Positions 30,923-62,222 of a DNA stretch of 64,000 nucleotides are shown here, in pieces. The stretch's first letter is position 1, and every line of letters begins with the position of its first letter. The DNA is taken from IMG/VR virus record IMGVR_UViG_3300047563_000187, positions 111,262 through 175,261 of that record; one strand, 5' to 3'. A model generated the notes under the pieces. That model saw only the letters and a list, made by a program, of their open reading frames with translations, ran no database searches and was not told the DNA's origin. A program made the position numbers and the translations under genes. The DNA is from a virus.

Positions 30923-31240
30923 GATCGACACATGTGTCTGGTCACTTTGAGTCCTCACCACACCGCATATCGTTGATTCCATAGGCTTTTTAAGGCCGAT
31001 GTGTCGGTTGTGTCGATTGTTCCACCCCAAAATACATACTCCTTTCCTTAGAACACCCAATGTGTCTTATTCTATATATCTCTCTATCTCTCGTAAGGAA
31101 AATAAAAATAAATAAATAAGAGGGGCGGTTAGGGATTTTCATGTACGGGGTGTTTTTGGGCCCTGGAACACCGACACATCGCACACATCCGACCGGTTTT
31201 CATTGAGATACTCAAGAACTCCTAATCGACACATCGAAAA
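30923..31240. repeat. non-coding direct repeat with CGACACAT iterons, copy 1
   Basis: There is no gene here. The core 30997-31188 is nearly identical to 56279-56471, about 25 kb away. It carries ATGTGTCG/CGACACAT units at 30926 (in the perfect palindrome GACACATGTGTC), 30998, 31009, 31063, 31171 and 31228, an AT-rich middle with TATATATCTCTCTATCTCTC and tandem AAATA units, and ends that are inverted relative to each other (TGTTCCA ... TGGAACA). It resembles an iteron-type origin, a partition site or a multi-operator control region. Minus-strand reading frames across it are not conserved between copies. Confidence 0.85.
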
Positions 31241-31319: not shown

Positions 31320-32681
31320 ATGGCAGTCGTCAAAAAGCTCAAGCCAATTGATATGACTCTTGAGCAACTATATGCTCATGAGAAATTCACACCTACTATC
31401 CGTAAAGCAATTCTCCTCAAGGAGGACTTCAGCAAGATCCAAGTGGACTATTGCGACAAGGTCTGTACTGTACCCAGTCGTATGAAGTGCCCGGACAACG
31501 TGTATCTGCAAACGTTCGATGAGCCGGTAGATATCCTGATTCTCCAAGAGCAAGTCCCTCTTGATGAGAAGTGGAAAACCGGTCAGCAGGTCAACCGTAT
31601 TCACCGCAAGATCATGGGCTACATGATGAACCAGGTGAATGACACCAACTTGTCTGTGGCATACCTAGATCTCGTTAAGTGTCCGAACAAGTTCAACCCT
31701 GTGAAGGGTAAGCACAAGAATGCTACTGCTACGCAGATGGCGTCCTGTGCACCTTATCTTTACGAGCAAATCCGGCAGGCTCGTCCAAAGGTAATCGTCA
31801 GTACCTCATCTGTGGCAACGAAGGTGCTGGGCTTGAAGAAGTCCAACTACAACAACCGTGGAGAGTTCCATCTGACAGACATCCCAGGCCTGGACTACCA
31901 GGTACCTGTGGTTCTGACTCTACACGCTTCTGTTTTAGTCATGATCCGGCAGAACGCCTCAGGCAAGATGTACGGTCCTGACTTCTTCTCAGTCATCCGT
32001 CGCGACTTCCAGAAGGCATGCGATCTGGCCAACCAGAAGTATGCAGCTGGTGATGTCCGCCTAGCTATTCAGCAGCTGAAAGCCAGGGGTGCAATCCAGT
32101 ACTGCAAGAACATGGATGACGTTAAGAAGTACTATAACGAAATCATGGCCTTGCCTGAGAACGCAGTGTTCTCCTGGGATACGGAAACGACATCTCTCGA
32201 CCCATGGTCAGACGATGCTCGACTCCTCTGCTCGCAGTTCGGATGGCGCCGGCCAGATGGCTCTCTCATTGGGGTATCCTTCCCGCTTTGGCACAAGGAC
32301 AACCCGATGAATCCAGATATCATCTGGGACTATGTAGTGGACATCTTGATGCGGCCTAACCCGAAGGTTGGCCACAACGTCAAGTTTGATATCGTGTTCA
32401 CTGAGGTGACCACAGGTATCCGTCCGGTCAACGTCTGCTTCGATACTCTGCTATGTGCTCACAGCATCAACAGTGGTATTCAGCAGAACTATAGCCTGAA
32501 GACTGTCATCTGGGATTGGACTCCGGAGACTGGCCTGGGCGGCTATGAAGACCTTCTGGATGAAAGTCTGACCGAGGAGCAGGTTGCCCTCATCAAGGCG
32601 GAGCTCAAGAAGGAACGTGACGCCAAGAAGGCGTTGGGATTAACCGACTCCGACGACGAAGAAGAGGAGTCAGAAGAATGA
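31320..32681 (+). CDS. DNA polymerase subunit: UDG-like domain plus 3'-5' exonuclease motifs I-II
   Basis: The protein has 453 residues. Residues about 70-220 resemble a family 4/5 uracil-DNA glycosylase (VDILILQEQVP, YLDLVKCPNKFNP, CAPYLYEQIRQARPKVIV, TLHASVL), but the catalytic GEAPG loop is replaced. From about 280 a DnaQ-like exonuclease begins: D287/E289 in SWDTETTSLDP (exo I) and D357 in GHNVKFDIVF (exo II). It stops before exo III and ends in an acidic tail (DSDDEEEESEE). Exo III is on the gene at 37944. SPO1-like phages have a UDG-exo-Pol fusion; here it is split. Confidence 0.82.
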   Translation: MAVVKKLKPIDMTLEQLYAHEKFTPTIRKAILLKEDFSKIQVDYCDKVCTVPSRMKCPDNVYLQTFDEPVDILILQEQVPLDEKWKTGQQVNRIHRKIMGYMMNQVNDTNLSVAYLDLVKCPNKFNPVKGKHKNATATQMASCAPYLYEQIRQARPKVIVSTSSVATKVLGLKKSNYNNRGEFHLTDIPGLDYQVPVVLTLHASVLVMIRQNASGKMYGPDFFSVIRRDFQKACDLANQKYAAGDVRLAIQQLKARGAIQYCKNMDDVKKYYNEIMALPENAVFSWDTETTSLDPWSDDARLLCSQFGWRRPDGSLIGVSFPLWHKDNPMNPDIIWDYVVDILMRPNPKVGHNVKFDIVFTEVTTGIRPVNVCFDTLLCAHSINSGIQQNYSLKTVIWDWTPETGLGGYEDLLDESLTEEQVALIKAELKKERDAKKALGLTDSDDEEEESEE

Positions 32682-33649: not shown

Positions 33650-34144
33650 ATGCAAGGTCGTGACTATCTCTTGGGCGTACAGCCCATCTCTCAAGTAATC
33701 GGTGAGATTATTCATCCAACCGATCCCCTGTTCTCTCAGATCCCCGGCATGTATGCCGTCAAGGTTCTGTCCCTGCCGATTCTCCCAAGCATGTACGAGG
33801 ATATCTCTCGTAGTGCTGCGAGTGTTCTCTCGGTAGGTGACATCATCCTGGTCAGCGGATTCACTACTGTGTACACCGATGAGCAGCTGCGTTCTGACGC
33901 AGCAGAGAACTCCTGGAACAGCGTTATAACTAGCGAGCTTCGCTACACGCAACGTCTGATAGAGGAGACTCGAGACGGTGGGGCTGAAGTTGGACATCCC
34001 GTGGCTGTAGATGATTCTCCAGTGCTTAACGGAGATCTGGCTCAAGCTACCATCCGTCGTTCTATCGAAGACGATGTAACCCTGTACGCATCTATTAACC
34101 CGAGCAATATCTTCGGGAAGGTGTTGCAAGGTTGTGCTCGTTGA
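33650..34144 (+). CDS. hypothetical protein, 164 aa, possibly GroES-related
   Basis: It is coupled to the GroES-like gene (stop TAA, then ATG two bases on). The part SVGDIILVSGFTTVYTDEQL and the end LYASINPSNIFGKVL have the strand pattern of the GroES barrel, with a long insertion between. The resemblance is weak. It may be a partner or capsid-folding factor; otherwise unknown. Confidence 0.45.
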   Translation: MQGRDYLLGVQPISQVIGEIIHPTDPLFSQIPGMYAVKVLSLPILPSMYEDISRSAASVLSVGDIILVSGFTTVYTDEQLRSDAAENSWNSVITSELRYTQRLIEETRDGGAEVGHPVAVDDSPVLNGDLAQATIRRSIEDDVTLYASINPSNIFGKVLQGCAR

Positions 34145-34211
34145 ACTATATTATCCCAAGTGCGGAGTTGACCGCCTAACTACAACTTACCCTCATCTAG
34201 GAGTTGACCTT

Positions 34212-35462
34212 ATGAGTAAGAAAGCCACCCTTGCCGTGATCTTTGGTCGCTGGCAGCCCCTCCACAACGGCCACCTGACCCTGTTTCAGGAAGCCGTTAA
34301 AAGTGCCAAGCATGTTCTCGTGTTCGTTGGCTCTTCCAATAAACCCCGTACCCCACAGAACCCGTTCTCAGCTGAAGAACGTATCGACATGATCTACAAG
34401 GTCTTCGAGAGCGGTCTCGAAGAGCAGCTTGAAGGCATGTACGACGTCGTCCCTTTGCCTGACTCTTACATGGATTCCGTGTGGAGTACTGACGTTCGCC
34501 GCCTGGTTAACTCCTTTGCGTGTGACGTCGTTGCTGATTACGGTGATGAGATCCTCGATTCGGATATCCTCGTCGTAGGTCACGAGAAGGATGACTCCAG
34601 CTACTATCTGAACATCTTCCCTGAGTGGAACGTGAAGAAAGTGCCGAACTTCAATGGCTTGAACGCCACTGATATTCGTAACGAGCTGTTCAATCGTAAG
34701 CGTCCGGTAGACCCAGGATTCACTAACCGCATCGCCAAGTACTTGGCAGTGTGGTGCGGTAAGTCTGAGACTGAAGTCCAGATGTTCATGGACACTCGTC
34801 TGCGGAAGGACCTGCCTGCCCAAGTCGATCCTAAGGCCTCTGAGGAGCTCTCTAAGCAACTCCGACCGCTGGACCTAACCTACCTATCCATCAACGTGCC
34901 GGAAGGCGTACGCGAGTTCCTACGCGGTTACATGACTACAGACTCATACTTGGACATGATCGAGGAGACCTTCTCTTATGCATGCAACAAGATGACCTGG
35001 GGTCTGGCTCCGTACGCTCCTACCTTCGTGACTGTCGATGCGGTAGTGACCATGAAGGGTCACGTACTGTTGATCCGTCGCAAGCAGTCTCCTGGCCGCG
35101 GCCTGTGGGCTCTGCCTGGCGGGTTCATCGATCAGGAAAATCCCCTGGTCGACAACGTGATTCGCGAGCTTCGTGAGGAGACTCGCATCTCCATCCCGAA
35201 CAACAAGCTCAAGGACTGCATCACCAAGATGATTACTGTGGATGATCCGTACCGCAGTAAGCGTGGCCGCACTATCACCCATGCTGCTCACATCGATCTG
35301 GACAAACTCCCTGATAGTGACATTCAACAGCTCCCGACCGTACGCGGTTGTGACGATGCCGAGAAGGCACGCTGGTTCACCTTCAGTGAAGTTCTGGATT
35401 TCGGCTCTACCCTGTTCGAAGACCATGCAGAAATCATCAAACGTCTCGTATTCAGCAAGTAA
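34212..35462 (+). CDS. nadM: bifunctional NMN adenylyltransferase/Nudix hydrolase
   Basis: The protein has 416 residues. The N-terminal nucleotidyltransferase domain shows GRWQPLHNGHL (the HxGH motif) and the C-terminal half shows LPGGFIDQENPLVDNVIRELREET, a Nudix box in which the first conserved Glu is Asn. Bacterial and phage NadM-Nudix proteins make NAD+ from NMN and ATP. ATG 34212 follows AGGAG; an in-frame ATG at 34134 lies inside the upstream gene and is rejected. It sits beside nicotinamide phosphoribosyltransferase, giving a two-step NAD+ salvage path. Confidence 0.93.
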   Translation: MSKKATLAVIFGRWQPLHNGHLTLFQEAVKSAKHVLVFVGSSNKPRTPQNPFSAEERIDMIYKVFESGLEEQLEGMYDVVPLPDSYMDSVWSTDVRRLVNSFACDVVADYGDEILDSDILVVGHEKDDSSYYLNIFPEWNVKKVPNFNGLNATDIRNELFNRKRPVDPGFTNRIAKYLAVWCGKSETEVQMFMDTRLRKDLPAQVDPKASEELSKQLRPLDLTYLSINVPEGVREFLRGYMTTDSYLDMIEETFSYACNKMTWGLAPYAPTFVTVDAVVTMKGHVLLIRRKQSPGRGLWALPGGFIDQENPLVDNVIRELREETRISIPNNKLKDCITKMITVDDPYRSKRGRTITHAAHIDLDKLPDSDIQQLPTVRGCDDAEKARWFTFSEVLDFGSTLFEDHAEIIKRLVFSK

Positions 35463-35472
35463 GGAAACTGCT

Positions 35473-36999
35473 ATGAACACTATGCAAAACTCTCTCGTTA
35501 ACCTGTACCGCTCCCACATCCAGGCCGGCCACGTGCGTGTCGAAATGAACGGCATCGCCCGGGAATTCGAACGCATGTTCAGTCCGAACCGTAACGTTCT
35601 GACCAATGCCGACGGCTACAAGTACAGCCAGTACCTGCAATACCCTGAAGGTACCACCTACGTTGCTTCCTACATCGAAGCTCGTGTCGGTGCCAAGCAC
35701 AGTCGCATCCTCTGGTGTGGTCTGCAGGCTTTCCTGAAGGAAACTCTGACCGTCCGTATCACCAAGAAGATGGTCGACAAGATGGCCAAGATCGCCAAGT
35801 CTGCAGGTGCTCCGTTCAACTACGATGGCTTCATGCGTATCGTGAACGAGTTCGACGGCCGTTGGCCGCTGCGTATCCGTGCTCTGCCGGAAGGTGCAGT
35901 AGTCAAGCCTGGCACCGTACTGGCTCTGGTGGAGAATACCCACCCGGACTTCTTCTGGTGCACCTCCTTCATCGAGACTATGCTGCTGCGTGCGGCCTGG
36001 TACATGACTACCGTAGCTACTGTCTCCAAAGACATCTACGACCTGTGCCTGGGTACTCTGGTCGAGTTCACTGACCTGAAGGGCGAAGCTCTGAAGATGG
36101 TTCTGAAGTTCATGCTGAACGACTTCGGTGCACGCGGTGCTTCCTGCCACGAAGCTGCGGTACTGGGCGGCATGGGTCACCTGATGACTGGTTTCCGTGG
36201 TTCTGACACTACTGAAGCCTCTGAGGGTGCCGAGCTGTACTACAACCACAACATCGAGGAAGATGCTCCGACCAAGACCGTACCGGCCTCTGAGCACTCC
36301 ACCGCTGCGTCCGAAGGTGAAAAGGGTGAACATATCTTCAACTCCCGCATGATCAAGGCGTTCGGGGATGGCTTCATCTTCGCCTCTGTATGTGACAGCT
36401 TCGACCACTTCAAGAACGTGGCTGAGAACTGGCTTGGCAAGAATGCAGTAGAAGTCATGAACATGAATGCCCGTCTGGTTATCCGTCCGGACTCTGGTGA
36501 TCCTGTAGACATGGCTCTGGCTACTGTGGAGCTGCTGGATGAGAAGGTGGGTTCCACCCCGAACTCCAAAGGCCTGAAGGTCCTGCATCCGAAGTTCCGT
36601 GTGATCTACGGTGACGGTATCGACTACAGCACTATCCTGGCCATCTTCACCGCTCTCATCGAGAACGGTTACTCCCCGGAGAACATCTGCTTCGGTATGG
36701 GTGGGGCTCTGCTTCAGAAGTGCGACCGTGACTGGGAACGCTTCGCTATGAAGGCCTGTGAGCTGGAAGTCATGGGCGTCAAGCGTCACGTCGGTAAGAA
36801 GCCGAAGACTGATCCTTCCAAGACCTCCAAGTTCGGCATCTACACGCCGCACCTGGTAGACGCGGAGATTGTCAACGTGGCTGCAGATGGTCCGGTTCCG
36901 GAGGGTGCCGTGGAAGTCTTCCCGGTAGTATTCGAGAACGGCTTCCTTCTGAAGGACTGGAGCCTGGACGAGATCTCCTCGTTCTCTGCCATGCAGTAA
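35473..36999 (+). CDS. nadV: nicotinamide phosphoribosyltransferase (NadV/NAMPT)
   Basis: The protein has 508 residues, close to the family's 490. Diagnostic stretches include ADGYKYSQYLQYPEG, the DFGARGASCHEAAVLGGMGHL region, VPASEHSTAASEGEKGE, ARLVIRPDSGDPVDM (PRPP-binding part) and FGMGGALLQKCDRD. It converts nicotinamide and PRPP to NMN, which the neighbouring NadM turns into NAD+. The long frame starts at 35242, but ATG 35473 after AAGGAA is consistent with the family's N-terminus. In phages, this pair counters NAD+-depleting defence systems (the NARP2-type pathway). Confidence 0.95.
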   Translation: MNTMQNSLVNLYRSHIQAGHVRVEMNGIAREFERMFSPNRNVLTNADGYKYSQYLQYPEGTTYVASYIEARVGAKHSRILWCGLQAFLKETLTVRITKKMVDKMAKIAKSAGAPFNYDGFMRIVNEFDGRWPLRIRALPEGAVVKPGTVLALVENTHPDFFWCTSFIETMLLRAAWYMTTVATVSKDIYDLCLGTLVEFTDLKGEALKMVLKFMLNDFGARGASCHEAAVLGGMGHLMTGFRGSDTTEASEGAELYYNHNIEEDAPTKTVPASEHSTAASEGEKGEHIFNSRMIKAFGDGFIFASVCDSFDHFKNVAENWLGKNAVEVMNMNARLVIRPDSGDPVDMALATVELLDEKVGSTPNSKGLKVLHPKFRVIYGDGIDYSTILAIFTALIENGYSPENICFGMGGALLQKCDRDWERFAMKACELEVMGVKRHVGKKPKTDPSKTSKFGIYTPHLVDAEIVNVAADGPVPEGAVEVFPVVFENGFLLKDWSLDEISSFSAMQ

Positions 37000-37943: not shown

Positions 37944-39506
37944 GTGAGAAAACATAAAGGGTTCACGTATGAGTGGTACGACTACGACGCTCTGATGACG
38001 TATGCGGCTATCGATAACTACGTGACAAGTGCCATTCTGGCGGCCATGTGGCCAACGCTCAATGAGCGACGAGACTACACTTTCTTTAAGCGTGGTCAGG
38101 CTCAAGTCGTGAAGACTCCGTCTATTCGTAATGAACAGTTGGAGGTCAAAAAGCTGGCGTTAGACTTCGTGTGCGATATGGAAGTGGCAGGTATGGCTTA
38201 CGACATCCCTGCTAACCGACGTATGCATCAAGCCATGTTGGAAGACTTGGCGATTACTGAGGATCAGATCTTCACCGCCATCGGTAAGCGGATTGATCTG
38301 AACTCCGGTGCTGCTCTGGGTGATTTTCTTTACCGTGAACGCGGTTTTGACGTCCCTCTGCAGACGAAGAGTGGTGGCGATTCAACATCTGGTGATGCTC
38401 TGAAGGCTCTGCACAAGATCCACGAGCATGACTGGCTGAAGGACATCATCAAGCGTAACGACGTGCACGCTATGCATGGCAACTTCATCAAGACCTATGT
38501 AGAGGACTGGGTGAAGAGCGACGGTCGGATCCATCCTCAGTACAACCTGTTCGGCACCAGTTCGCACCGTATCAGCTCCAGTGAGCCGAACCTGCTGAAC
38601 CTGCCGCGTGGCTATTACGGCTACAACATCCGGGAACTCTACATCACTGTCCCGCCGATGGCCTTCCTGACCTTCGACTTCTCCTCGTGTGAAGTGAAGA
38701 TCTTGGCGGCCCTCTGTAAGGATGAGGCAATGATGGATGCCTGTGCGAAGGGTTGGGACTTCCACTCCTTCACCGCATCGATGATTGCAGGCGTACCGTA
38801 CGAGGACTTCGTTAAGATTGCTAAGGATGAAGACCATCCGGAGCACAAGAAGTACAAGGGAATCCGTCAGGATGCCAAGGCGACCACCTTCGGTCTGCTG
38901 TATGGCTCCACTGTAAACGGTATCGCCATGAACCTTGGCAAGTCCCTGGAAGAGACCCAGAAGATCGTGGATACCTACTTCCGCTTGTTCCCGAAGGTAA
39001 AAGACTTCATCGAAGACTGCCACAAGATGGCTCTGGCCAACCAGTTCGTCTTCTCGCCATTCGGTCAGAGAAAGATGGAGTACGGTGCTCAGGACGTCTT
39101 CCGTGGCACTGCCGTGTACAACGCTGCTCTGCGGAACAGCCAGAACGTATCCATCCAAGGTCCGGCTTCTACTTTAGGTCTGATTGTGTTCGCCAAGCTG
39201 AACGAAGAGCTCAAGAAGATTGGTGGCCGGGCAATCTGTACGGTATACGACTCGGTGGAAATCGAAGTCCCGATGAATCGCATGGCAGAAGCCATCGAGC
39301 TCGGCTTCTACATGATGGATGACTGGCCTGTCGAGAACTTCGACTGGTTGGACTTCAAGATCGGTGCGGATGCTGAAATCGGTTGGGATTGGGGTAATGT
39401 ACACGGCGTCAAACGTGGCATCACCCAAGAGAAGTGTGAAGAAATCCTCTCTGCAGCCAATGAAGAGAAGTATGTGACCTCCCGTCTGGTACTGGCGGCG
39501 GCGTAA
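37944..39506 (+). CDS. DNA polymerase family A, exo III motif plus polymerase domain
   Basis: The protein has 520 residues from GTG 37944 (GGAGGAA just upstream; no ATG is possible). Residues 20-24 (YAAID) are exo III (YxxxD) of the DEDDy exonuclease whose motifs I and II lie on the 31320 gene. Then come LNLPRGYYGYNIREL, motif A (LTFDFSSCEVKIL), motif B (RQDAKATTFGLLYGS) and motif C (VYDSVEIEV). It is therefore the catalytic subunit of the replicative polymerase and must pair with the first product to have a complete proofreading site. Confidence 0.92.
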   Translation: MRKHKGFTYEWYDYDALMTYAAIDNYVTSAILAAMWPTLNERRDYTFFKRGQAQVVKTPSIRNEQLEVKKLALDFVCDMEVAGMAYDIPANRRMHQAMLEDLAITEDQIFTAIGKRIDLNSGAALGDFLYRERGFDVPLQTKSGGDSTSGDALKALHKIHEHDWLKDIIKRNDVHAMHGNFIKTYVEDWVKSDGRIHPQYNLFGTSSHRISSSEPNLLNLPRGYYGYNIRELYITVPPMAFLTFDFSSCEVKILAALCKDEAMMDACAKGWDFHSFTASMIAGVPYEDFVKIAKDEDHPEHKKYKGIRQDAKATTFGLLYGSTVNGIAMNLGKSLEETQKIVDTYFRLFPKVKDFIEDCHKMALANQFVFSPFGQRKMEYGAQDVFRGTAVYNAALRNSQNVSIQGPASTLGLIVFAKLNEELKKIGGRAICTVYDSVEIEVPMNRMAEAIELGFYMMDDWPVENFDWLDFKIGADAEIGWDWGNVHGVKRGITQEKCEEILSAANEEKYVTSRLVLAAA

Positions 39507-46435: not shown

Positions 46436-47195
46436 TCTTCACTCTGATCATTGGAGAGGTACTGGTAACATCCTTGATCTTTTACATTTTGATAAGGATA
46501 AGGTCGAGGCAGTATTCGTTGCAGGGGATGCTGGGGAGTGGATCGGCGGTATGGGCGAAGACAATCCTATGGTTGTCCGTGTGTTCGAACCTTTGAACCG
46601 CCTGGGAGTCCCAGTGTTCAGTGTAAGTGGTAACCACGAGTACTACTACACAGATCTCCTCCAGGTAGACAAAGAGATGGAGGAAGTAAGCCATCTGTTT
46701 GAGAACTGGCATCATCTGCAAGGTGGCCAAAGCCGGCTGCTGGGTGATGAATACGCTGTCATCGGGGCCACTTTGTGGACTCCATTGGCAGGTATGGGCA
46801 ACCCTATCCGCAGTAAGCGTGGCATGCGGGATATGAATGACCGCAAGTACATCAAGATTGGCGGGAAGAAGTTCGACTACAAGCAGGTAATTACCCTCCA
46901 CGAAGCCCATTTGAAGGGCATCCAGGAGGCTTTGGAACGCCACAAGGACCGCAAGTGCATCATTATGACGCACCACGCACCGTCCTATAAGCGTATCCCT
47001 AAGCGTTACATGTTCGATGCTTGCAACATCGCCTACGCTTCCGAGGTAGCTAACCAGATTCAGGCCCACGCCTGGATCTCAGGGCATATTCACGAAAGCT
47101 TTTACATGGAGATCAACAACACCCTCCATATCTCAAACCCACTTGGCTACCCTGGTGAGGGCCTGCCGGTATTTGAAGGAACTTACACGTTATGA
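46413..47195 (+). CDS. metallophosphoesterase (calcineurin-like)
   Basis: The protein has 260 residues. Two-metal site motifs appear in order: DLHSDH, VAGDAGEW, SVSGNHEYYY, IMTHHAPSYK and SGHIHESFY. It would hydrolyse phosphomonoesters, phosphodiesters or dinucleotides in the cytoplasm. Its stop overlaps the RtcB start (ATGA), so the two enzymes are probably made in equal amounts. A role in trimming RNA ends before RtcB ligation, or in removing cyclic phosphates, is an inference. Confidence 0.88.
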   Translation: MEAAVLSDLHSDHWRGTGNILDLLHFDKDKVEAVFVAGDAGEWIGGMGEDNPMVVRVFEPLNRLGVPVFSVSGNHEYYYTDLLQVDKEMEEVSHLFENWHHLQGGQSRLLGDEYAVIGATLWTPLAGMGNPIRSKRGMRDMNDRKYIKIGGKKFDYKQVITLHEAHLKGIQEALERHKDRKCIIMTHHAPSYKRIPKRYMFDACNIAYASEVANQIQAHAWISGHIHESFYMEINNTLHISNPLGYPGEGLPVFEGTYTL

Positions 47196-48337
47196 AACTC
47201 AAAAAGATCGATGTGCTAGACAAGCCGTATCAGATCTACGCAGAAGTGCTGGAATCTGGTGCAATTGACCAGTTTGTCGACGTAATGGGTCAGGCAGACG
47301 TCCGCCAGGGTGCCTTGATGGCGGATGCTCATTCTGGCTACGTACTGCCGATCGGCGGCGTAGTGGCTACTGAGGGGACCATCTACCCGTCTTTCGTAGG
47401 TTATGACATCGGCTGCGGCGTATGTGCAGTCAAGATGAACATCAAACGGGAACAGATCTGGGATAAGGCAGCCGAAATTCGCGACGCCATCTACAAGCAG
47501 ATCCCCGTCGGCTTTAACAAGAACCCTCTGGAGCGTCATGCTCGTGTCCGTAAGCTTCTCAAGGAGCTGAAAGGCAATCCTACCAAGGTCATCACTGAAG
47601 ACCTGTGGGGCGAAGCCGTTCTGGGCTGCGGCACCCTAGGTGGCGGTAACCACTTCATCGAGATCGGTTATGACGAGAACGATGACATCTGGGTAATCGT
47701 ACACTCCGGCTCTCGTAGCCTGGGCTTTGGCGTAGGCGAGCACTACATGAAGCTGGCTGCCGGTCGCGATCGCAAGTTCGAAGGTCTCTACAGCCTGCAT
47801 GAGCACTCTGATGTCGGTAAAGACTACATCAACGATCTGGATTACTGCCTGGCATACGCCCTGCTGTCCCGCAAGATCATGGTTAGCCATACCTGCAACA
47901 TCCTCAAGGACTTCGTTGAGGGTGCCGAGGCGATTGCCGACACCTGGATTAACCGCAACCACAATCATGCGGAGAAGAAGGGTGATGTGTGGATCCACCG
48001 TAAGGGTGCGACCCATGCTGAACTCGGTATGATGGGCGTTATCCCTGGTAACATGCGGGATGGCTGCTTCATTACCCGTGGTAAAGGTAATCCGGCGTCC
48101 CTGTACTCCAGCTCTCACGGTGCCGGGCGCGTAATGTCCCGGGCGAAAGCCAAGGAAGCAGTCAATCTGGAGCAGCTGGCGGAGATGATGAAAGATGTAC
48201 CTGGTGCGTCCGTACGTCCCGGCGTCATCGACGAGGCCCCGGCTGCGTACAAGAACATCTTCGAAGTCATGGAGCTTCAGAAGGACCTCCTGGAAGTGGT
48301 TCACCACGTCAAACCTATTGTCAACGTGAAGGGCTAA
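47192..48337 (+). CDS. rtcB: RtcB RNA ligase
   Basis: The protein has 381 residues against 408 in E. coli. Diagnostic stretches are GYDIGCGVCAVKM (metal-binding Cys), GTLGGGNHFIEI, VHSGSRSLGFGV, and the C-terminal YSSSHGAGRVMSRAKA, whose His takes GMP. RtcB joins 3'-phosphate or 2',3'-cyclic phosphate ends to 5'-OH ends, so it repairs tRNAs cut by anticodon nucleases. The tRNA clusters at 60.5-64 kb and a nucleotidyltransferase at 55437 fit the same repair theme. Confidence 0.96.
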   Translation: MKLKKIDVLDKPYQIYAEVLESGAIDQFVDVMGQADVRQGALMADAHSGYVLPIGGVVATEGTIYPSFVGYDIGCGVCAVKMNIKREQIWDKAAEIRDAIYKQIPVGFNKNPLERHARVRKLLKELKGNPTKVITEDLWGEAVLGCGTLGGGNHFIEIGYDENDDIWVIVHSGSRSLGFGVGEHYMKLAAGRDRKFEGLYSLHEHSDVGKDYINDLDYCLAYALLSRKIMVSHTCNILKDFVEGAEAIADTWINRNHNHAEKKGDVWIHRKGATHAELGMMGVIPGNMRDGCFITRGKGNPASLYSSSHGAGRVMSRAKAKEAVNLEQLAEMMKDVPGASVRPGVIDEAPAAYKNIFEVMELQKDLLEVVHHVKPIVNVKG

Positions 48338-55459: not shown

Positions 55460-56213
55460 GGGTGGTAGCCACCTGTATGGGCTCAATAACGCTGACTCTG
55501 ACAATGATTTCTACGAGATTGTTGCTCTGAGTCCAGCTGAGCTCGCATTTGACATCATCAACCTTCGTCATGGGGAGGCTGTAGGCCCTGGTGAGGTGGA
55601 TGATCACGAGATCGATGTGGTGACTCTGTGTAATGGCTACTTGGACACCATGTGGGCCCTGGAGCTTCTGTTCGCAGAGCCAGAGGCTGACTACGAGGTG
55701 GCTCCTGAGTGGAACCGTCTGCGTGACATGCGTAAGAACCTGTGTACACCTGCACTGGTCCAGCAGACTTACTTCCGTCTGCAGAACTGCGTCAGCCAGT
55801 ATGCCTCCTATACTCGTCCGACAGCTGATCAAGAGGGTGTGTGGAAGGTAGCTGAGAACTTCAGTACCAAGCCGGTTAACGCTCGGAACCTTGCACACGC
55901 ATATCGCATGGCTGTCCAGCTGATGAACTACATCACTACTCGTGATCTGTTCGGCACAACCTTCACTCTGAACCGAGAGGCTTACCATCGCCTCAAGAGT
56001 AATGTGGTGACGGTAGAGGACGTCAAGGAGTGTCTGCAGACCCTGGTAGGTTTGGGTATGCTGAAATCCCAAGGTGTAGGCATCAGTAGTGAGTTCTATG
56101 AGAGCCCGGAGACCAAAGTAGTCCTCTGGGGAATCGTGAACACCACCACGGTGGCTGCTATCGGAACCGAGAGTCCAGCCATCGAGTACTTCCAATCGAC
56201 ACATGACGAGTAA
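55437..56213 (+). CDS. DNA polymerase beta-type nucleotidyltransferase (RlaP-like)
   Basis: The protein has 258 residues. GGSHLYGLNNADSDNDFYEI is the nucleotidyltransferase G-S and D-x-D motif, and HEIDVVTLCNGYLDTMWALE provides the third acidic residue. This is the arrangement of PF10127-type (RlaP) proteins, described as RNA-repair-associated polymerase beta family members. With RtcB and the tRNA clusters it fits an RNA-repair theme, though its substrate is unknown. AAAGGAG precedes ATG 55437. The stop region contains a CGACACAT iteron of the following repeat. Confidence 0.75.
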   Translation: MLRLARIKGGSHLYGLNNADSDNDFYEIVALSPAELAFDIINLRHGEAVGPGEVDDHEIDVVTLCNGYLDTMWALELLFAEPEADYEVAPEWNRLRDMRKNLCTPALVQQTYFRLQNCVSQYASYTRPTADQEGVWKVAENFSTKPVNARNLAHAYRMAVQLMNYITTRDLFGTTFTLNREAYHRLKSNVVTVEDVKECLQTLVGLGMLKSQGVGISSEFYESPETKVVLWGIVNTTTVAAIGTESPAIEYFQSTHDE

Positions 56214-56510
56214 ATGTGTCGGGTAACTTTGGGTCCCTAAGGGGACCCAACTTATTGATTCCATTAGCTTTTAGCTAGCGATGTGTCGGTTGTGTCGATT
56301 GTTCCACCCCAAAATACATACCCCTTTCCTTAGAACACCCAATGTGTCTTATTCTATATATCTCTCTATCTCTCGTAAGGAAAATATAAATAAATAAATA
56401 AGAAGGGGCAGTTGGGATTTTTCATGTACGGGATGTGTTTGGAGGGTGGAACACCGACACATCGCACACATGGATCCTCGGAATGGCTTGATTATGGACA
56501 AAGCGACTGG
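56197..56510. repeat. non-coding direct repeat with CGACACAT iterons, copy 2
   Basis: The core 56279-56471 matches copy 1 (30997-31188) with few changes. Homology extends left to an inverted pair CGACACAT...ATGTGTCG (56198-56222), where copy 1 has GACACATGTGTC, and includes GTGTCGGGTAACTTTGGGTCC. Further right a CGACACATC lies at 56541, before a sigma70 promoter. A hairpin GGGTCCC/GGGGACCC lies at about 56231-56248. No gene is present. Confidence 0.85.
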
Positions 56511-56577
56511 AACACTGCCTGGAACAGACTCATAGTTACCCGACACATCATCTTTTCGAAATTTCTTTGAAATAGTG

Positions 56578-60315: not shown

Positions 60316-60321
60316 AGAAAA

Positions 60322-60343
60322 GGGGTGTTGACACCCTTTTTTA
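60322..60343 (+). terminator. terminator overlapping the tRNA-operon -35 box
   Basis: GGGTG/CACCC with loop TTGA, then TTTTTT. The TTGACA -35 of the next promoter lies inside the hairpin. Confidence 0.7.
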
Positions 60344-60355
60344 GTATGCTATAGT
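60328..60355 (+). promoter_or_regulatory. sigma70-type promoter of the tRNA cluster
   Basis: TTGACA (60328-60333), 16 bases, TATAGT (60350-60355). It is the obvious start of the stable RNA operon. Confidence 0.75.
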
Positions 60356-60361
60356 GGCATC

Positions 60362-60540
60362 CTAGTTTCTCAAGTGGGTGGGCATATGATCCTCATCATG
60401 GATGTACAATACGGTGAAACGAATTGTGCGGCCGGATTACTGCAATAGGGATTGACAACCCTACTGAGATTGTGAGAAGCTTGCCTGGTAAACATCGGAA
60501 ACCCGATTGGGTTGTCGCTGTTGATCAGTTAGCACGAAAC
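60362..60540 (+). ncRNA. structured leader of the tRNA operon
   Basis: No gene is visible. It contains a long-range helix GTTTCTCA (60365-60372)/TGAGAAGC (60473-60480), the hairpins ATGAT/ATCAT, ACAAT/ATTGT and TAGGG/CCCTA, and AACCC/GGGTT (60500-60513). It may be a precursor leader that is removed by RNases, or part of a further RNA. Confidence 0.45.
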
Positions 60541-60617
60541 GGAGCTGTAGTTTAGATGGTGAAAATGCCTGCCTGTCACGCAGGAGACCGCGGGTTCGAG
60601 CCCCGTCAGTTCCGCCA
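60541..60617 (+). tRNA. tRNA-Asp (GTC)
   Basis: Full cloverleaf: acceptor GGAGCTG/CAGTTCC, T loop TTCGAGC, discriminator G, encoded CCA. Anticodon GTC at 60575-60577. Confidence 0.95.
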
Positions 60618-61045
60618 AAATCTTAAGATCAGTACCCAATCTCCCGCCAGCTAACGGGAGATTAGGATGACCGAGAAACCCTTCGTTGCGGGGTAAGGTT
60701 TTACAGTGGCACAGCCAAGCCTTCCTGTCTCTAATCCTGAGATGGTAAGAATCCCTGAGGTAGGGGACTGTAAGATCCTAGGACACTCATCATATTGGAT
60801 GATACTGAGCACAAACTCGTTGAGGGTATGCAAATTCCCTCTCTGGCCTTCGGGTCAGGTGGCCGAATAAAAGCCTAGCATGGGCGTTAAGGCAATCTAC
60901 TGGGGATGACCTCCCCTTGTCAGGCACCGTGAGGTGTGAGATCCGCCAGAGGGAATCTGGAGTAGAGATACGAGGTAGCAATACATGCACCTAGGTCGTC
61001 GGTAGCACAGGAATCCGACTCCTTTGGGTGCTGATCTTAAGGTTT
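60618..61045 (+). ncRNA. large ornate RNA closed by a 20-bp stem
   Basis: It begins right after the CCA of tRNA-Asp and ends 12 bases before tRNA-Pro. Bases 60618-60637 pair with 61026-61045 in 20 contiguous pairs, two of them G-U. Inner hairpins: AATCTCCCG/CGGGAGATT (60638-60663), CATCAT/ATGATG-type at about 60787, GAGGG/CCCTC (60822-60841), CTGGCC-TTCG-GGTCAG (60843-60858), GGGGA/TCCCC (60902-60916), CACC-GTGA-GGTG (GNRA loop), CCAGA/TCTGG and GTCGG/CCGAC. No plus-strand gene is present. Size and tRNA context recall giant phage RNAs such as GOLLD and ROOL, but I cannot assign a class. Confidence 0.7.
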
Positions 61046-61057
61046 TGAAAGTTTCAT

Positions 61058-61134
61058 CTGTCCGTAGCGCAGTCTGGTAGCGTGCTCGATTTGGATTCGA
61101 GGGGTCGAAGGTTCAAATCCTTCCGGGCAGACCA
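61058..61134 (+). tRNA. tRNA-Pro (TGG)
   Basis: Acceptor CTGTCCG/CGGGCAG, T arm GAAGG/CCTTC, discriminator A, encoded CCA. Anticodon TGG at 61092-61094. Confidence 0.93.
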
Positions 61135-61141
61135 ATTTAAT

Positions 61142-61333
61142 GTCCCATATGCACGGCTAGTCTCAAATGCTCTTCCATCCACGTGGGTTGAGTCAGTAAT
61201 GGTAAAAGGCGAGATAGGCTTGGAGTGCAGGTGAAAGGCAGAAGGGCCTACTAGTAAGCTAGACTACGTGGATTAGCTGAAGACAGGAAGATACGTTGAG
61301 TAGTCAAAGGTTCGACTCCTAAGTGGGACGCCA
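61142..61333 (+). ncRNA. 192-nt RNA with tRNA-like acceptor stem, T-loop and CCA
   Basis: The ends pair like an acceptor (GTCCCAT with GTGGGAC, one G-U) and are followed by G and CCA. A T-loop-like TTCGACT flanked by AGG/CCT lies 12 bases before. No anticodon or D arm can be drawn. The middle has a pseudoknot: ATCCACG (61177-61183) pairs with CGTGGAT (61267-61273), and GACTA (61262-61266) pairs with TAGTC (61301-61305). That order recalls the P3-P7 core of group I introns, but the RNA is very small for one. Unknown class. Confidence 0.55.
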
Positions 61334-61340
61334 ATTTGAT

Positions 61341-61416
61341 CGATGTGTAGCTTAACAGGTAGAGCATCTCCTTCATACGGAGCAGGTTGTAGGTTCAAGT
61401 CCTACCTCATCGACCA
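61341..61416 (+). tRNA. tRNA with CAT anticodon (elongator Met, or Ile2)
   Basis: Acceptor CGATGTG/CTCATCG has one U-U mismatch and a paired C1-G72. Anticodon CAT at 61374-61376. If lysidine is added it would read ATA as Ile. Confidence 0.88.
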
Positions 61417-61805: not shown

Positions 61806-62222
61806 ATGTGCTATTCCAAAGAACTCATTGAGTACTGGAGTCAACATCTCGAGGCCTACTTCTTCAACGAAGAGGACTTGGTAGTCTATCAGGTAATCGA
61901 AGGGTTGGAGTCAGCCTTCCTATCAGAGGTCACGGTACTCGGCTACTTGTTGCCAAGGTTGATGATGTTGAATGCCGACCAGAGCGACTATCAATCCATA
62001 GTCGTGGTCACCAGCGTAGCTTCGAGCCTAGCTATGTCGATCTTGATAGGCATGAATCCAGTACAAGCACTATCCGATACTCTGACTGGAATGTCTCTGG
62101 CTATGCCGAGGGATTACTTAGATCAGGTAGTTGCAGATAACCAAGATATGATCAACCAATTGACTCGCCGGTTGATTTCTATCCGTCAAAACAATCCCCT
62201 TATTCTTGGAGGTGACCAGTGA
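61806..62222 (+). CDS. hypothetical protein, 138 aa
   Basis: A helical protein (for example TDTLTGMSLAMPRDYLDQV) starting at ATG 61806, nine bases after AGGAGG. The middle (SIVVVTSVASSLAMSILIGM) is hydrophobic. Translation is predicted to be blocked in read-through transcripts from the tRNA operon by the hairpin upstream. Its stop overlaps the next start (GTGA). Function unknown. Confidence 0.7.
   Translation: MCYSKELIEYWSQHLEAYFFNEEDLVVYQVIEGLESAFLSEVTVLGYLLPRLMMLNADQSDYQSIVVVTSVASSLAMSILIGMNPVQALSDTLTGMSLAMPRDYLDQVVADNQDMINQLTRRLISIRQNNPLILGGDQ

Follow-up and report, generated by a model that had tools for sequence, protein, structure and literature searches.

The window analysed here is a 64,000-nt stretch of a viral record from IMG/VR and contains a tRNA operon in which a large structured RNA is embedded between tRNA-Asp and tRNA-Pro (Table 1). 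The initial annotation placed the RNA between these two tRNAs, behind a promoter at 60328 and in an interval without a plus-strand gene. All three assignments are confirmed: both tRNAs were located, the promoter is a good sigma-70 match, and the interval contains no open reading frame (ORF) longer than 66 residues on either strand. Three ORFs from the interval were tested and gave no matches to Pfam or PHROGs. The first gene-sized plus-strand ORF 3' of the RNA begins at 61806, after five tRNAs (Pro, Met, Gln, Ala and Leu), and the only terminator detected in the region is on the minus strand (60323-60336), with none behind the RNA. A 180-nt leader of mild structure (60362-60540, z = -1.95) that matches no known family separates the promoter from tRNA-Asp. 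A further 180-nt stretch, between tRNA-Pro and tRNA-Met (61142-61333), has tRNA-like ends (GTCCCAT/GTGGGAC pairing, GGTTCGACTCC, GCCA) and lacks a normal tRNA body; ARAGORN does not call a tmRNA there.

Table 1. Coordinates of the RNA, its structural elements and the flanking tRNA operon in the window.
Feature	Position	Strand	Remarks
Sigma-70 promoter of tRNA operon	60328..60355	+	TTGACA-16 nt-TATAGT, TG before -10; 11/12 consensus matches
tRNA-Asp(GTC), encoded CCA	60541..60617	+	3' end abuts the RNA
Closing helix, 5' strand	60616..60639	+	60618-60639 lie beyond the tRNA 3' end
5' domain	60640..60842	+	About 200 nt, several hairpins; no relative in covariance-model and blastn searches
manA-like core	60841..61027	+	RF01745 match 60843-61024
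P1 hairpin, UUCG loop	60843..60858	+	Rfam alignment and fold
P2-P3	60862..60893	+	Conserved GAAUAA 60865-60870, UAAGG 60888-60892
P4 (UCUACU/AGUAGA) around P5, P6 (GUGA loop) and P7	60896..60966	+	Alignment and fold
P8 and inner hairpin	60973..60992	+	Fold
P9 hairpin	60998..61019	+	Conserved loop motif ACAGGAAUCC at 61007-61016
Closing helix, 3' strand	61024..61047	+	Helix search and shuffles
tRNA-Pro(TGG)	61058..61134	+	Presumed RNase P cleavage at its 5' end, 3' of the RNA

The two ends of the RNA are joined by a long helix. The pairing originally described, 60618-60637 with 61026-61045 including two G-U pairs (T60621-G61042 and T60633-G61030), is exact and slightly understates the helix, which extends 2 bp further inward (60638-60639/61024-61025). 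With two outer pairs that borrow the CA of the tRNA-Asp CCA (60616-60617/61046-61047), the full helix has 24 bp, 22 of them past the CCA. It is the longest in the window on both strands for segments 100-700 nt apart (the runner-up has 16 bp), and the longest helix in 200 dinucleotide shuffles of 60318-61345 was 17 bp. The 5' strand of the helix contains the self-complementary sequence AUCUUAAGAU. The 428-nt RNA folds with a minimum free energy of -167.4 kcal/mol (z = -4.75), a value not reached in any of 100 shuffles. The UUCG-capped hairpin and the GUGA-capped hairpin (60925-60936) noted at the outset are both real, with modelled-pair probabilities of 0.97-1.0.

An Rfam scan at its own thresholds returned only tRNAs. 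A permissive cmscan produced a match of 42.3 bits to the full manA model (RF01745, positions 1-192), with an E-value of 1.1e-9 to 3.8e-9, or 1.1e-10 over the whole 175-kb record. This score falls short of the 55.2 bits that Rfam sets as its gathering cut-off, which is why the relationship was missed earlier; the published manA of the Bifidobacterium megaplasmid pMP7017 is likewise below it, at 41.5 bits. The permissive scan gave no credible match to a group I intron or a tmRNA, and a second, tandem manA suspected in the 5' domain (CCGAGAAA...GGGGUAAGG) was rejected at 1.8 bits.

Because of the low score, the match was checked independently with covariance models of our own, whose E-values (R1-R3) are rough. 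Model R1, built from 26 marine viral manA copies and the Rfam consensus with the window left out, scores the window at 21.3 bits, the sole match beyond classic marine manA in 266 kb; on 348 kb, mostly loci chosen for GAATAA...TAAGG...ACAGNAATCC, the window was the only match. Model R3, built from marine and Bifidobacterium manA, again with the window left out, scores it at 20.3 bits, the sole significant match in 266 kb. No manA was found at E <= 1e-4 in 764 gammaproteobacterial genomes. Compared with the marine consensus in the model-fitted alignment, closing stem excluded, 16 base pairs carry two-sided changes, 2 one-sided changes, 14 are the same, 2 are broken and 10 are gapped; the count of 16 rather than 17 leaves out one closing-stem pair that competes with P1. 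A free single-sequence fold, blind to manA, recovers P1-P9 with probabilities of 0.69-1.0, and imposing both P1-P9 and the closing helix raises the energy by 0.7 kcal/mol.

The 3' half of the RNA (60841-61027) is thus very probably a divergent relative of manA. It has P2-P3 with GAAUAA and UAAGG, the P4-P7 junction, P8, and P9 with ACAGNAAUCC. The marine GGGAG/CUCCC stem around P2-P9 is absent in the Rfam alignment, and in place of the 5' UTR position implied by the Rfam type (Cis-reg), tRNA-Pro comes next. The RNA is not filed as a full Rfam member, since neither the curated score nor the short closing stem is attained, and only the manA core has support from covariation. The suggestion in the initial annotation that this might be a new class is accordingly not upheld for the 3' half; its broader view of a structured, non-protein-coding phage RNA that forms a unit of the tRNA operon, with ends beside tRNA processing sites, stands.

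The source phage is related to Salmonella phage Arash, and the record lies outside the cyanophages. Its relatives are Arash and five IMG/VR genomes located via the DNA polymerase, with 63-64% identity in this protein; IMG/VR searches with the neighbouring proteins and the primase returned no relatives. The RNA is absent from the five genomes, Arash and a Vibrio phage by Rfam, blastn and model R2, and all six related records (the five and Arash) carry long tRNA arrays without it. Covariance-model and blastn searches gave no homologues of the 5' domain and the closing helix, and a blastn comparison of the RNA with phage and plasmid sequences matched nothing except tRNAs. A 27-nt match adjoins a recombinase gene on a Dietzia plasmid. 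IMG/VR scans for non-marine manA yielded, among the matches listed, only classic marine manA or chance matches in coding DNA; since exact motifs were used to scan the collections, relatives that diverge further would escape. What is novel is the 5' domain, some 200 nt for which no relatives are known, together with the long helix that joins the two ends and a host that does not belong to the cyanophages.

Several other features of the window are recorded here. In two intergenic copies of one element (56214-56549 and about 30990-31240), nested inverted repeats, CGATGTGTCGG...CCGACACATCG, flank an AT-rich core, TTATTTATTTATTT; this may be a mobile or replication element, and its minus strand (56205-56555) has a folding z-score of -7.4. 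A GAATAA...TAAGG repeat on the minus strand at 31046 and 56328, considered as manA, belongs to this unrelated element and was rejected. The DNA polymerase I gene is in two ORFs 5 kb apart (31320-32681 and 37944-39506), and the C-terminal part again ends just before the TFG|LLYG motif in both Arash and Vibrio phage D69. A phage NAD salvage pair, an NMN adenylyltransferase-Nudix fusion adjoining NAMPT, occupies 34134-36999, and an RtcB RNA ligase (47192-48337) lies behind a calcineurin-like phosphoesterase.

The genomic context of manA was analysed in at least 95 distinct marine viral contexts, taken from the matches listed in the IMG/VR motif scan. A sigma-70 promoter (TTGACA-TATAAT) ends just before P1 in 88 of these 95 contexts, compared to 7% in shuffles, and sometimes overlaps the terminator of the preceding gene. 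In 12 of the 95 (0.1% in shuffles), manA is followed after 12-30 nt by an intrinsic terminator, which leaves no space for a gene. An ORF of at least 60 residues starts within 200 nt after manA in 69 of the 95, an arrangement compatible with a cis-regulatory leader but also with compact phage genomes. Some copies are packed against tRNAs. Two follow tRNA-Thr with a gap of 0-1 nt (loci L055 and L116), the former with a terminator behind manA; in a third locus (L080), manA (2322-2520) lies between two tRNAs (2253-2320 and 2519-2589) with at most one base between; and in a fourth (L065), tRNA-Asn begins 4 nt after manA. Several marine copies directly adjoin a tRNA and for that reason lack a dedicated promoter. 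On the Bifidobacterium megaplasmids (pMP7017 and relatives), manA lies between tRNA-Phe and tRNA-Arg in all four plasmids examined and is followed by a terminator-like hairpin. The tRNA array of these megaplasmids is transcribed, and the occurrence of manA beside tRNAs "in some cases" has already been noted (PMC10832533). These tRNA-linked copies have the manA core, rather than the whole RNA, in common with the window. A CUA-anticodon tRNA (amber suppressor; called Pyl by ARAGORN) was also seen in the arrays of related phages (L141-L145) and in two of the Bifidobacterium megaplasmids (L196-L197).

Copies of manA between tRNA genes or directly before a terminator cannot be leaders of a neighbouring gene. 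That manA occupies such positions both in this phage and elsewhere suggests that it can be produced alongside tRNAs as an RNA in its own right. To our knowledge, manA has been a riboswitch candidate since 2010, with neither a ligand nor a function assigned. The tRNA-packed and terminator-backed copies therefore suggest looking for its function in a free RNA co-produced with the phage tRNAs rather than in ligands and cis-regulation.

Our favoured explanation, to which we assign a probability of roughly 60% from the sequence evidence, is that the window encodes a free-standing RNA of about 430 nt, which tRNA-processing enzymes release from the tRNA precursor and which acts in trans. It draws on the fold, the relationship to manA, the gene-free interval and the manA copies elsewhere that abut tRNAs or are flanked by terminators; the score under the cut-off and the lack of the marine closing stem in its usual place count against it. 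The RNA would be co-transcribed with the tRNAs from the predicted promoter at 60328, and its two ends would be held together by the long helix. Processing of the tRNA-Asp 3' end would place the 5' end at or near 60618, and an RNase P cut at the 5' end of tRNA-Pro would place the 3' end at or before 61057, freeing an RNA of 428-440 nt; that tRNA enzymes perform this excision is inferred from general knowledge and the exact abutment of the tRNA. RNase III cuts rRNA processing stems; the blunt helix might protect the RNA, or RNase III might cut or trim it. Joining of the paired ends by the phage RtcB is a possible additional step. The freed RNA would then act in trans during infection, most plausibly in the tRNA and translation programme of the phage, a role suggested by the recurring tRNA linkage.

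Alternatively, the manA-like core could be a cis-acting switch (riboswitch or attenuator) governing how the tRNAs behind it (Pro, Met, Gln, Ala, Leu) and the ORFs that begin at 61806 are transcribed or processed. Such a role agrees with Rfam and with Weinberg et al. 2010, both of which place manA among cis-regulatory RNAs, often upstream of genes, and consider it a potential riboswitch (PMC2864571), and with the ORF-followed majority of the marine copies listed. A competing pairing (60666-60672/60994-61000) overlaps P9, and terminators follow manA in the 12 marine loci listed, as does the terminator-like hairpin in Bifidobacterium. However, at the present locus a gene-sized plus-strand ORF is reached only after five tRNAs and no terminator lies behind the RNA, while the marine terminators, 12-30 nt past manA, have no sequence in common with it, and where manA closes a tRNA unit (L055), no target for regulation lies between it and the terminator. 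We therefore regard a cis-acting switch as unlikely.

The long helix might instead be all that matters, as a processing stem or spacer, with the enclosed RNA a decaying passenger inserted in the tRNA operon. The six related records with long tRNA arrays and no such RNA fit this scenario, as does the loss of the marine closing stem; but decay would break pairs, whereas the core pairs are kept, 16 of them through two-sided changes, along with the unpaired motifs, which makes a passenger quite improbable. Very improbable, too, is a new class of large RNA with a chance or convergent resemblance to manA: half of the RNA has no relative and the score is under the curated cut-off, but the per-genome E-value is about 1e-10, two models built without the window match it, a motif-carrying decoy set gave no match, and compensatory pairs are present. 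Assembly as a homo-oligomer or cage like GOLLD and ROOL would be favoured by the tRNA neighbourhood and by the contrast between a conserved 3' half and a 5' half that is not conserved, as in GOLLD (PMC12286853), and by the self-complementary segment of the closing helix; it is highly improbable given the shorter length of the RNA and its lack of any sequence or model similarity to either family.

The window RNA extends the manA fold to phages beyond the cyanophages and indicates that this fold can double in size; its long helix renders the RNA ends testable. It shares with marine manA the P1-P9 architecture, with GAAUAA and UAAGG in the P2/P3 junction, the four-way P4-P7 domain and the P9 loop ACAGNAAUCC; it differs in score (42 bits, compared to about 170-190 for the marine copies scanned) and in its closure. 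In marine manA, a 5-bp GGGAG/CUCCC stem encloses P2-P9 and leaves P1 outside, whereas here it is replaced by a helix of 22-24 bp further out, which encloses P1-P9 and the 5' domain. Marine manA resides in cyanophages, and the window RNA in a tRNA-operon phage related to Arash. The Bifidobacterium manA is equally divergent and also lies inside a tRNA array without a gene of its own, but retains GGGAG/CUCCC and is followed by the terminator-like hairpin; the 327 nt around it have a weak fold (z = -1.54), without a comparable long end-to-end helix. Covariance models of GOLLD and ROOL gave no matches to the window RNA at E <= 10, and these RNAs have a different fold and are longer. GOLLD has a conserved 3' region, a variable 5' region and a tRNA neighbourhood (PMC12286853), and the window RNA, as a large structured phage RNA adjoining a tRNA island, resembles GOLLD and ROOL in setting. 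A tentative generalization, which we consider possible though doubtful, is that manA, rather than being a riboswitch, acts in trans within the tRNA programme of phages and plasmids, inserted in tRNA arrays and excised by tRNA enzymes; the enlarged, end-clamped form in this phage would then be a third large tRNA-island RNA beside GOLLD and ROOL.
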